34,559 nucleotides of DNA. Origin: Bacteroidales bacterium. GTDB taxonomy: Bacteria; Bacteroidota; Bacteroidia; Bacteroidales; P3. Below, in pieces: positions 2,135-5,849 of the stretch. Made by a program: the position numbers and the translations under genes. Every line of letters starts with the position of its first letter. The first letter of the stretch is position 1. The DNA is taken from NCBI GenBank assembly GCA_017524785.1, contig JAFXUY010000044.1, positions 1 through 34,559 of the forward strand, given 5' to 3'. The notes below the pieces were generated by a model. The model made no database searches. It saw only the letters and a program-made list of their open reading frames with translations, and was not told the DNA's origin.

Positions 2135-3712
2135 ATGAGACGTATTATATATTTGGTTGTTGTATTGGTGTTTATGGTTGCTTGCAACCGCCACAACCAC
2201 AGCGACAAGCAGATATTCCGCTATAACGAGTCGGCTGGTATAGCCACGCTCGACCCGGCATTTGCCAAAGACCAGAGCATCATCTGGCCCTGCCGCCAGT
2301 TGTACAACGGACTGATAGAGCTCGACTCAAACCTGCAAGTGCAGCCCTCGGTGGCCAAGAGCTGGACCATAAGCGACGATGGCTTGACCTACACCTTCAC
2401 CCTGCGCGACGATGTCTGCTTCCACAAGCATAGCCTGTTCGGCAACGCCGACAGCACACGGAATGTGGTTGCTTCCGATTTTGTGTACAGTTTCAACCGC
2501 ATACTCGACCCATCGGTGGCTTCGCCGGGAGTGTGGATATTCAGCGATGTGGAGAGTTTCGCGGCACCCGACGACAGCACCTTCGTCATCCGTCTTAAGC
2601 GCCCCTTCGCACCATTCCTGTCGCAGTTGGGCATGGTCTACTGCTCGGTGGTGCCACGCGAAGTGGTGGAGCACTATGGCAAGGACTTCCGCAACCACCC
2701 TTGCGGCACAGGCCCGTTCCAGTTCCAGTATTGGAAAGAAGGCGTGAAGCTGGTGATGCGCAAAAACCCGCTCTATTTCGAGCAGGGTCTCCCCTATCTC
2801 GACGCCGTAGCCGTCACCTTCATCGTCGACCGCCAGACGGTGTTTCTGGAGTTTGTAAAGGGCAACCTGGACTTCATGAACTCGCTCGACGCCAGCTACA
2901 AAGACGAGGTGTTGAATCAAGACGGCACGCTGAAGGCCAAGTATGCCGACCGAATAGATATGGTGAGCACGCCGTATCTGAACACCGAATATCTGGGTTT
3001 CAACATGGACGGCGACGACTCGCCGCTTAAAGACCGCCGCATCCGTCAGGCAATAAACCTAGGCTTCGACCGCCGCAAGATGATGCGCTACCTTCGCAAC
3101 AATATCGGCGAGCCGGGCGTCTACGGCTTTGTGCCGCGCGGCCTGCCAGGCAATGCTGAAGAGCCATTATACGAATACGACCCAGAGCGCGCCAAGGCGC
3201 TGCTTGCCGAAGCCGGACACCCCGACGGAAAGGGACTGCCGCGGCTGAAGCTATCCACCACAGCCAACTATCTTGACTTGTGCAAATACCTGCAGCAGCA
3301 GCTAGGCCTGTTGGGGATAGATGTGCAAGTAGACGTCAACCCTCCAGCGGCCCTTCGTGAGCAGATAGCCCAGGGCAAGGTAGAGTGGTTCCGTGGCTCG
3401 TGGGTGGCCGACTATCCTGATGCCGAGAACTACCTCTCGCTATTCTTCAGCGAGAATAAAGCTCCTGCCGGGCCAAACTACACACGCTTTGTGAGCCGCG
3501 ACTACGACCGCATATACCGTGCGGCACGCAGCGAGACCGACCCGGTGCGCAGGGTGCAGATGTACAAGGATATGGACCGTATGGTTATGCAAGAAGCCCC
3601 TGTCGTGGTGCTCTACTACGACCAGATACTGCATTTCACGCACAAGAACGTGCGCGGCTTGCGGTCGAACGCCATGAACACGCTCGACCTGCGATACGTG
3701 ACAATTGATTAG
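2135..3712 (+). CDS. Peptide ABC transporter substrate-binding lipoprotein (SBP_bac_5 family)
   Basis: This is a 525-residue solute-binding protein of the OppA/DppA type. The N-terminus is a lipoprotein signal with a lipobox ending VAC at residue 17, so the mature protein should be lipid-anchored. Family features are the early segment on placement of the ligand (IATLDPAFAKDQSIIWPCRQ), KSWTISDDGLTYTFTLRDDV, the central NTEYLGFNMD region, RQAINLGFDRRKMM, and a C-terminal QEAPVVVLYYDQ. Its length is normal. No permease or ATPase gene adjoins it, so it either works with a transporter encoded elsewhere or has another role. Its TAG (3710-3712) overlaps, tail to tail, the stop of prfB on the other strand. 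Confidence 0.9.
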   Translation: MRRIIYLVVVLVFMVACNRHNHSDKQIFRYNESAGIATLDPAFAKDQSIIWPCRQLYNGLIELDSNLQVQPSVAKSWTISDDGLTYTFTLRDDVCFHKHSLFGNADSTRNVVASDFVYSFNRILDPSVASPGVWIFSDVESFAAPDDSTFVIRLKRPFAPFLSQLGMVYCSVVPREVVEHYGKDFRNHPCGTGPFQFQYWKEGVKLVMRKNPLYFEQGLPYLDAVAVTFIVDRQTVFLEFVKGNLDFMNSLDASYKDEVLNQDGTLKAKYADRIDMVSTPYLNTEYLGFNMDGDDSPLKDRRIRQAINLGFDRRKMMRYLRNNIGEPGVYGFVPRGLPGNAEEPLYEYDPERAKALLAEAGHPDGKGLPRLKLSTTANYLDLCKYLQQQLGLLGIDVQVDVNPPAALREQIAQGKVEWFRGSWVADYPDAENYLSLFFSENKAPAGPNYTRFVSRDYDRIYRAARSETDPVRRVQMYKDMDRMVMQEAPVVVLYYDQILHFTHKNVRGLRSNAMNTLDLRYVTID

Positions 3713-4821
3713 CCTTCGGCCCCGAACTCCATGAGGTAAGCCTTGATGAACTCGTCGATTTTGCCGTCGAGCACACCGTTCACGTCTGATGTCTGGTAGT
3801 TGGTGCGGTGGTCTTTGACGCGGCGGTCGTCCATCACGTAGCTGCGTATCTGGCTGCCCCACTCTATCTTTTTCTGGCTAGCCTTGATTTTGTCTTTCTC
3901 CTCCATGCGGTGCTTCAGCTCGCGGTCGTAGAGTTGGCTGCGCAGCAGACGCATGGCATTTTCTTTGTTCTTGGGCTGGTCGCGCGTTTCAGTGTTTTCG
4001 ATAAGAATCTCTTCCTCCTCGCCTGTATAGGGGTCCTTATATTGGTAGCGCAGACGCACACCAGACTCCACCTTGTTGACATTCTGTCCGCCGGCGCCGC
4101 CGCTGCGGAAGGTGTCCCATGAGAGTTTCGACATGTCCACCACCACTTCTATAGAATCGTCTACCAGCGGTGTGACACTGACGCTAGTGAACGATGTCAT
4201 GCGCTTGCCCTGGGCGTTGAAAGGAGAAACGCGCACCAGTCGGTGCACACCGGTTTCGCTCTTGAGATAGCCGTAGGCAAAGTCGCCCTCAATCTGTAGC
4301 GTGCAACTCTTGATGCCGGCGCCGTCGCCGTCGAGCGAGTTGCAGACCACCACTTTGTAGCCGTGTGTCTCGGCATAACGAATGTACATGCGCATCAGCA
4401 TCTCGGCCCAGTCTTGGGCCTCCACGCCACCTGCACCGGCGTTGATAGAGAGCACGGCATCGAGGCGGTCGCTGTCGTTGCGCAGCATATTCTTGAACTC
4501 CAAATCTTCCACCTTCTTCTGTGTGACGGCAATCTGTGCCACAAGTTCTTCCTCGCTGGCGTCGCCGGCGTCGAAGAACTCGCCCATAACCTCGAGGTCG
4601 CCGCACGAGGTGTCGACATCCTTGAAGGCTGTAACCCACGTCTTCTTGGCGTTGATACCTTTCACCACCTTCTGGGCTTCCTTGGGGTCGTTCCAGAAGT
4701 CGGGGGCTTCGGTTTTCTTCTCCTCTTCTGCAATCCAAGCCTGAGTCTTATCAATGTCGAGGAATTTCTTAAGTGCCTCTTTGCGGGCAACAAGGTCTTT
4801 TATTTGTTCTTGGTTTGTCAT
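3709..4821 (-). CDS. prfB: Peptide chain release factor 2
   Basis: This is the class I release factor that recognises UGA and UAA and triggers peptide release. The start is placed at ATG 4821 (MTNQEQIKDL), giving 370 residues; the open frame extends to a TTG at 4845, but that would run into the RNA gene upstream. The RF2-specific recognition tripeptide SPF is at residues 199-201 and the catalytic GGQ at 244-246, within the usual SGGAGGQNVNK motif. Most RF2 genes have a programmed +1 frameshift near codon 25 at CTT TGA C. Here the corresponding bases read TTC CTC GAC and the frame is continuous, so that feedback loop is absent. The 5' leader is occupied by the SRP RNA gene, whose U-run ends 12 bases before the ATG. 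Confidence 0.96.
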   Translation of the reverse strand: MTNQEQIKDLVARKEALKKFLDIDKTQAWIAEEEKKTEAPDFWNDPKEAQKVVKGINAKKTWVTAFKDVDTSCGDLEVMGEFFDAGDASEEELVAQIAVTQKKVEDLEFKNMLRNDSDRLDAVLSINAGAGGVEAQDWAEMLMRMYIRYAETHGYKVVVCNSLDGDGAGIKSCTLQIEGDFAYGYLKSETGVHRLVRVSPFNAQGKRMTSFTSVSVTPLVDDSIEVVVDMSKLSWDTFRSGGAGGQNVNKVESGVRLRYQYKDPYTGEEEEILIENTETRDQPKNKENAMRLLRSQLYDRELKHRMEEKDKIKASQKKIEWGSQIRSYVMDDRRVKDHRTNYQTSDVNGVLDGKIDEFIKAYLMEFGAEG

Positions 4822-4833
4822 CTTAATAAAAAT

Positions 4834-4940
4834 AAAAAAGGGCAAGCTATTTATATCGCGCCGCTACAACCAAACACCCTTGCTGTATTCCTACCCTGGG
4901 GGATTCAATGGGAGCTGGCCGTATAAGACTTGCCCAATCC
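4834..4940 (-). ncRNA. ffs: Signal recognition particle RNA (4.5S-like)
   Basis: This is the small bacterial SRP RNA, the partner of Ffh in targeting nascent membrane proteins. The diagnostic distal hairpin is at 4881-4898 and reads CAGGGUAGGAAUACAGCA on the minus strand: 5' internal-loop CAGG, a GUA/UAC stem closed by a GGAA tetraloop, then the 3' internal-loop AGCA. This is the Ffh-binding arrangement of domain IV. The two ends pair as GGGCAAG (4929-4935) with CUUGCCC (4840-4846), followed at once by a run of six U (4834-4839) that would act as terminator. A consensus promoter lies just upstream. Counting from that promoter, the primary transcript may begin near 4982 and carry a small 5' hairpin (CAGGC-AUAG-GCCUG, 4950-4963) that could be trimmed. 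The exact ends are inferred. Confidence 0.9.
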
Positions 4941-4988
4941 TATGATATACAGGCCTATGCCTGCAAACGTCATCTCTCGTTCGGAATG

Positions 4989-5019
4989 CAAAGATACGAC
5001 ATTTTTCCGAAACGGCAAA
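4989..5019 (-). promoter_or_regulatory. Bacteroidetes promoter for the SRP RNA (and possibly prfB)
   Basis: Reading the minus strand, TTTG (5016-5019) is followed by a 19-bp spacer and TATCTTTG (4989-4996). This matches the Bacteroidetes sigma-ABfr consensus TTTG-N19/20-TAnnTTTG. It sits in the few bases after the miaA stop at 5025. Transcription would begin around 4982. Confidence 0.82.
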
Positions 5020-5024
5020 ATAAA

Positions 5025-5849
5025 TCAGTATTTTCTCATCCAGGTCAACTGCTTGCGGGCATAATGCCAAGTGTTGAGTTTTATCTGATTGATGGCATGT
5101 TCCAGGGAGTCGGAGCCTTCGATGACAGGGAAAAGCTCACGGTAGCCTACGGTGTTAAGGGTTGACAGATGGCGGAATTCGAGCAGCGAACGCACCTCGT
5201 CGAGTAGACCGGACTGCATCATGGCATCGACACGGTGGTCGATACGTCGGCGGAGCTCGTCGGAAGGAAGGCGAAGCACACGTACCTCGGTGTCGAAGGG
5301 TCGCGGAACGGTGGTCTGCTCGGCTATGATGGCGCTATAGGGTCGACCAGCGGTGAGGCACACCTCGAGTGCGCGCTGGAGGCGCACGGGGTTGCGGAGG
5401 TCGACACGTGCGTAGTAGTCGGGGTCGAGCAAGCGCAGCTGCGAACGTTTTTCCTCGATGGGCATAGCCTGCAACTGGCGGCGCAAATCGGCCGAAGGAT
5501 TGGGCAGCCGGGCCGGAGTGGCAAGCAGGGCATCGATATAAAGACCGCTGCCGCCGACGGCAACAACGGTGTCGTGCTTCTCGAACAGGTGGTCGACCTC
5601 GCGCATGGCATCCTGCTCGTAGTCGAAGATGTTATACGGCTCGGTGACCGAACGGCAGGCAATGAAATGATGCGGAGCGGCGGCGAGTTCGTCGGTTGTA
5701 GGACGTGCCACGCCGATGTTCATCTCGCGGTAGAACTGGCGCGAGTCGCACGATATTATCTCTGTGTCGAGTTGTTGTGCCAACTGAACAGCGTAGGCTG
5801 TCTTGCCTACAGCCGTAGGTCCGGCAATTATTATGAGCCGCTTGTTCAA
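5025..5849 (-). CDS. miaA: tRNA dimethylallyltransferase
   Basis: This enzyme adds a dimethylallyl group to N6 of A37 in tRNAs reading UNN codons. The start is set at TTG 5849, whose bases overlap the aroA stop (TTGA, 5846-5849). This gives 274 residues with the P-loop GPTAVGKT at residues 10-17 near the N-terminus, as the family requires. The alternative upstream start at 5879 is also TTG, and no ATG precedes the P-loop. Other family features are SCDSRQFYREMNIGVARPT (substrate and prenyl-donor region), GGSGLYIDALL and the C-terminal ARKQLTWMR. The protein stops five residues after ARKQLT, about 25-30 residues short of the usual end, so the last helix is missing. The stop lies immediately next to the ffs promoter. 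Confidence 0.93.
   Translation of the reverse strand: MNKRLIIIAGPTAVGKTAYAVQLAQQLDTEIISCDSRQFYREMNIGVARPTTDELAAAPHHFIACRSVTEPYNIFDYEQDAMREVDHLFEKHDTVVAVGGSGLYIDALLATPARLPNPSADLRRQLQAMPIEEKRSQLRLLDPDYYARVDLRNPVRLQRALEVCLTAGRPYSAIIAEQTTVPRPFDTEVRVLRLPSDELRRRIDHRVDAMMQSGLLDEVRSLLEFRHLSTLNTVGYRELFPVIEGSDSLEHAINQIKLNTWHYARKQLTWMRKY

Follow-up and report, generated by a model that had tools for sequence, protein, structure and literature searches.

How is a release factor gene transcribed when the gene of a protein-targeting RNA ends only a few nucleotides (nt) before its start codon? The question is raised by the window, a stretch of 34,559 nt from an uncultured Bacteroidales bacterium of the gut (assembly GCA_017524785.1, contig JAFXUY010000044.1). 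In this stretch the gene of the small signal recognition particle (SRP) RNA lies directly upstream of a protein gene on the same strand, as in SRP-led operons of the scr-dnaX kind, and the protein gene is prfB, encoding peptide chain release factor 2 (RF2). Judged from sequence, it is rather probable that a short operon begins with the SRP RNA gene and that prfB would be expressed by read-through from the SRP promoter. The elements involved are as follows.

4989-5019, minus strand: SRP promoter, TTTG (5019-5016), 19 nt, TATCTTTG (4996-4989), by direct reading
4943-4983, minus strand: predicted 5' leader of the SRP transcript, with an expected start about 4983-4981, placed by promoter position
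4836-4942, minus strand: small SRP RNA (4.5S/ffs type), by full-length RF04183 match and fold
4834-4839, minus strand: U6 run after the closing stem, a putative terminator-like 3' end, by direct reading
4822-4833, minus strand: spacer of 12 nt from the U-run to the prfB start codon, by direct reading
3709-4821, minus strand: prfB, peptide chain release factor 2 without programmed frameshift, by TIGR00020, PF03462 and PF00472, in a single open frame

The SRP RNA is well defined. The Rfam covariance model RF04183 (Bacteroidales_small_SRP) matches 4942-4836 of the minus strand with 114.7 bits (gathering score 55.2) and an E-value of 9.9e-24. The match spans model positions 1-107 of 107 and is the only Rfam family above its gathering score in the window. 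A chance match is ruled out by this E-value together with the conserved neighbourhood. The Ffh-binding core of such RNAs includes a GGAA tetraloop and a CAGG/AGCA internal loop; the core CCCAGGGUAGGAAUACAGCAAGGG is read directly in the window and is identical in all 21 aligned loci. The closing stem is GGGCAAG/CUUGCCC and the predicted fold is the expected rod. The folding energy is weak evidence alone (z -1.46, with 18 of 200 shuffles folding equally well), and the covariance model is the real test. The segment is a Bacteroidales small SRP RNA by sequence model, with Ffh binding and a role in targeting as predicted functions. The sequence-only reading, which had described a complete small SRP RNA with core, closing stem and U-run and had proposed the covariance-model search, is borne out by the run on this segment. 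This RNA is the single copy detected in the genome to which the window belongs, itself 67% complete. A generic terminator scan flags nothing at its 3' end, because the scan accepts only loops of 3-8 nt.

A promoter motif lies ahead of the RNA. The Bacteroides primary sigma factor -7/-33 pair is TAnnTTTG / TTTG, as given in PMC7366714, and the window shows an exact match, TTTG-N19-TATCTTTG; the consensus promoter claimed earlier therefore stands. A generic sigma-70 scan of the window finds no promoter, as expected for this phylum. A leader of about 40 nt separates the expected start site from the SRP RNA, and the precursor would therefore need 5' trimming. In Escherichia coli, the 5' end of 4.5S RNA is trimmed by RNase P.

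The prfB product has 370 amino acids and scores 449.5 bits with TIGR00020 (cut-off 370); the RF1 models give 224.5 and 204.3 bits, under their cut-offs of 400 and 423. The complete gene is one open reading frame, and the signature of the programmed +1 frameshift, an in-frame UGA after CUU with an upstream AGGAGG, is not found in the window's prfB. Such a site (AGGAGG..CTTTGAC) is present in one genome of the same genus (G080, locus L213) and in 10 of 80 related loci, L012 and L017 among these. Among the RF2-like matches listed, a TGA within prfB occurs only in G080 and G085, of which G080 was the one inspected. The prfB ATG at 4821 is 14 nt from the end of the SRP model and 12 nt from the end of the U-run (4834), exactly the coordinates and spacing given before. 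In the predicted read-through transcript the prfB start codon is unpaired, and part of the U-run is paired with the final bases of the leader.

How widely this junction is shared was assessed in the window's genus. RF04183 is found above its cut-off in 86 of 99 genomes scanned. For prfB only RF2-like matches were kept, excluding RF1-like matches and small second pieces; among the matches listed, 88 of the 99 genomes have such a gene, 13 of these have no SRP match on the same contig, and 75 have both. The 75 include G077 and G080, with SRP matches below cut-off at contig ends. SRP RNA and prfB lie on the same strand in 71 of these 75. One genome (G082) has the two 6.3 kb apart, and the remaining 74 loci were read. 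The junction is direct in 18 of them, with prfB 3-15 nt past the SRP model end, mostly 11-15 nt; a pattern search gives 19 of 120 genus genomes, window included. The other loci have spacings of 94-102 nt (three), 393 and 479 nt (two), 722-1130 nt (35) or about 2-3 kb (12), or have the two genes on opposite strands (four). Where the SRP 3' end is readable, the longest T run within 10 nt past the stem reaches at least six in 67 of 73 loci. Of 73 readable loci, 71 have the exact -7 motif TANNTTTG ahead of the SRP RNA. This motif abuts the SRP 5' end in 39 of the 71 (L163 only through a second motif overlapping the SRP start, its first motif being 47 nt away) and lies 19-61 nt upstream in 32. All 18 direct-junction loci are of this second, leader type, and ten loci from the same part of the tree that carry a ZIP gene (see below) likewise have the leader.

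In the wider order the picture is different. The order set has 149 genomes, 139 with an RF04183 match and 138 with one over cut-off; of the 138 genomes with a match other than the window's own, 129 were read. Within the fetched stretches, some of which end at contig ends, none of the 129 loci has prfB behind the SRP gene, which rules out an order-wide linkage of ffs and prfB. The adjacency that the sequence-only reading proposed to look for across Bacteroidales therefore holds in part of the genus and fails in the rest of the order. A deep link of SRP and RF2 is not supported, given the same count and the gene that stands between the two in over half of the genus loci read.

This gene encodes a ZIP-family transporter (PF02535 for the one protein tested). 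It is found between SRP RNA and prfB on the same strand in 41 of the 74 loci, alone in 35 and with more genes in six, and fills all 35 gaps of 722-1130 nt. In these 35 its ATG is 3-59 nt past the SRP RNA in 31 loci and 101 and 115 nt past it in two, and in two no ATG is found. A ZIP query finds the gene in four of four ZIP-bearing controls and in none of 24 short-junction genomes (the 18 direct ones, G264 and the five at 94-479 nt), several of which are incomplete, except for a weak match in G022 (28% identity, E-value 4e-4). Losing ZIP several times from one fixed position seems likelier than gaining this gene there several times. Originally the genus probably had the order SRP - ZIP - prfB, and prfB would have taken the place of ZIP behind the SRP RNA when ZIP was lost. 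On the prfB tree the direct junction requires 11 changes, at least five of them forced by well-supported branches; this count cannot tell gain from loss, leaves many forks open and ignores recombination. In two loci the prfB spacer matches the old SRP-ZIP spacer in 9 of 9 nt and in the others it matches weakly, so that identity of the two spacers is suggestive at most and was not used. By eye, repetitive spacer DNA is present between SRP RNA, ZIP and prfB at L143, L149, L152, L159, L172, L189 and L190, and is perhaps involved in deletions. In two ZIP-bearing loci, L199 (G027) and L206 (G079), both the U-run and the ZIP ATG are lost, just past SRP end 1907. In G027 the ZIP frame runs through the SRP RNA without a stop, and a GTG inside the RNA could serve as ZIP start; in G079 no ATG, GTG or TTG start is found for ZIP. 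These two are possibly decaying genes.

The distribution of the -7 motif bears on how the genes behind the SRP RNA are read. In the window, neither the spacer nor the stretch of 110 nt ahead of the prfB ATG contains an exact match to TANNTTTG. The same holds within 110 nt of the ATG for all 18 direct prfB loci and for all 33 ZIP loci in which ZIP lies no more than 60 nt from the SRP RNA. ZIP genes far from or opposite the SRP RNA carry the motif 17-18 nt before the ATG in five of nine. Nine of the 74 loci could not be scored, six without a ZIP match and three without a ZIP ATG. The contrast between near and far genes has a Fisher p of 2e-5, or 2e-4 when the five longer-spacer prfB loci, all without the motif, are grouped as far, both uncorrected for kinship. 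The SRP-TsaC loci of other Bacteroidales repeat this trend: before TsaC the motif is found in one of 16 loci at 40 nt or less and in nine of 18 farther away (p 0.008). The counts fit a shared transcript, but also a promoter that the motif misses.

Such a promoter, lying inside the SRP RNA gene or the U-run, would make prfB independent of the SRP promoter and the adjacency merely positional. We consider this rather unlikely, yet it is the strongest rival to read-through because of what is reported for known SRP-dnaX systems; PMC10454642 says that the genes of Bacillus subtilis from scr on (scr-dnaX-yaaK-recR) have their own promoters. The window itself offers a candidate. The sequence TATTTTTA, which overlaps the U-run and the spacer, is one mismatch from TAnnTTTG and would give a nearly leaderless prfB mRNA, and other one-mismatch sites stand close to the ATG in three further direct loci. 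However, shuffles of the same letters have such sites in about 50% of cases, so that the real ones are no commoner than in shuffles, and they are conserved neither in position nor in letters. Gain of a promoter within the RNA is also improbable, since its core does not vary among the aligned loci, and none of the 18 direct loci has the exact motif within 110 nt of the prfB ATG.

Two genomes with the direct junction, each known from a single draft assembly, also speak for read-through. In G019 the U-run is gone, and in G067 both the U-run and the 3' strand of the closing stem are gone; both genomes retain the motif of the SRP promoter as well as the prfB start. With these losses nothing terminator-like is left in G067 between the SRP promoter and prfB. 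Because no exact -7 motif is found near prfB and the U-run is lost in these two genomes, read-through is the likeliest route; the proposal of the sequence-only reading is supported to this extent, short of a demonstration.

Several observations weigh against read-through as the route to prfB. The exact motif is also missing in all five prfB loci at 94-479 nt spacing, and in all 35 in which prfB stands behind ZIP, which with the 18 direct loci makes 58 of 58 across all spacings; in a wider set of 69 prfB genes that have no frameshift site, the motif occurs within 130 nt in only 19. A missing motif is therefore weak evidence that prfB has no promoter. Four of the 18 direct loci, the window being one of them, have one-mismatch sites no more than 40 nt from the ATG. 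The U-run is intact in 16 of these 18, so termination seems to matter and the RF2 message would be a minor product; SRP termination may be efficient. That a rod with a loop of about 85 nt ends transcription is itself something we infer. Moreover, the genomes of the set are mostly incomplete drafts, and related genomes are non-independent observations.

A different source of transcripts is the gene upstream of the SRP RNA, from which prfB could be read past the SRP promoter. In the window this gene is miaA, on the same strand and 82 nt before the SRP RNA; in many close relatives it is priA. The upstream neighbour varies in the 74 loci, with priA in 24, mltG in 31 and neither in 19, and miaA is there only in the window's genome, whereas the gene after the SRP RNA remains close to it. 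Transcripts from upstream would likewise meet the SRP terminator. We regard this route as very unlikely. The miaA gene (5025-5840, minus strand) is found upstream of SRP in 0 of 73 other genus loci read, and its position is either a local rearrangement or an assembly join.

Deletion of ZIP might also have created the junction by chance and left RF2 supply unaffected, read-through being negligible and prfB served by weak unrecognised promoters. The repeated changes of state on the prfB tree, the existence of spacings of 94-479 nt and the lack of the exact motif before prfB at every spacing all speak for this. On the other side, prfB is normally essential, and in two genomes the U-run that would separate prfB from the SRP promoter is gone. 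An accident without consequence seems to us very improbable.

In the preferred reading, transcription from the SRP promoter into prfB, RNA polymerase would start at the TAnnTTTG promoter at 4996-4989 and make the SRP RNA; motif and RNA are there to be read, and their use is predicted. Most transcripts would probably stop at the closing stem and U-run and yield SRP RNA, while a fraction would continue into prfB. The SRP and prfB parts would probably be split by RNA processing. Loss of ZIP would have placed prfB behind the SRP RNA and made RF2 supply dependent on the SRP promoter and a leaky SRP terminator. A meaningful coupling of SRP and RF2 is possible. A stronger version is more doubtful: RF2 here, without its autoregulatory frameshift, would be supplied by leakage of the SRP terminator, the RF2 stock would track the targeting RNA, and in G019 and G067 every SRP transcript would also be an RF2 mRNA. 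If so, these two genomes must cut the SRP RNA and the RF2 message from one precursor. The ZIP-bearing relatives among the matches listed also have a prfB without internal stop, so that they offer no contrast by which to tie adjacency to the SRP RNA to loss of the frameshift in RF2.

The loci of the genus form a natural series: ZIP between the two genes, ZIP gone, U-run lost, and finally U-run and 3' closing strand lost. It is the series of a housekeeping RNA gene turning into the leader of an essential translation gene. Beyond the genus, an SRP gene right before another gene is a recurrent state in Bacteroidales, and the partners change. Directly after the SRP RNA, the 129 order loci have a tRNA in 24 (23 Thr-TGT and one Tyr), a U-run in 97 and neither in eight; the SRP-tRNA pair is seen in several Bacteroidales lineages, e.g. 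L217-L227. A TsaC-like gene (TIGR00057 for the one tested) is downstream on the same strand in 34 order loci and 12-39 nt past the SRP RNA in 16 of the 129, e.g. L373, L382, L347 and L365. In the same family, where 22 of 55 non-own genomes with a match were inspected (L287 among them misparsed), four loci of genus g136 (L272, L274, L275 and L279) have a weak or absent U-run and an open reading frame 54-58 nt on, lipoprotein-like by eye. The Bacteroidales SRP gene thus often stands not alone but directly ahead of a same-strand gene, be it tRNA-Thr, TsaC, ZIP-prfB or prfB. This placement matters for annotation and for deleting or tuning SRP RNA or RF2 in these bacteria.

No paper joining ffs, prfB and signal recognition particle RNA, or prfB, SRP RNA and operon, was found in PMC, which leaves most subscription journals outside, and PMC7366714, on the transcriptome of B. 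thetaiotaomicron, mentions neither SRP nor 4.5S, ffs or prfB in its main text. The arrangement has known relatives. It resembles Bacillus scr-dnaX, where a housekeeping operon also lies downstream of the SRP RNA gene; PMC3871023 lists the Scr of B. licheniformis between tadA and dnaX. The window differs in its downstream gene, its 14 nt spacing and the absence of an exact motif before prfB. In srp-dnaX-ebfC of Borrelia burgdorferi, too, an operon begins shortly after the SRP RNA gene. There, according to PMC9879097, the 5' untranslated region is about 179 nt and the promoter lies inside the RNA gene, where the window has no such exact motif. Closer to home, the SRP - tRNA-Thr(TGT) pair of other Bacteroidales shares a second same-strand element right after the SRP RNA, but this element is an adjacent tRNA, whose maturation would be expected to release the RNA. 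The SRP - TsaC loci have a same-strand protein gene 12-39 nt on and no -7 motif in 15 of 16; the gene is a different one, and prfB is not found in those loci. SRP-led operons of the scr-dnaX kind are already known, and prfB as the downstream partner is a new variant of them.
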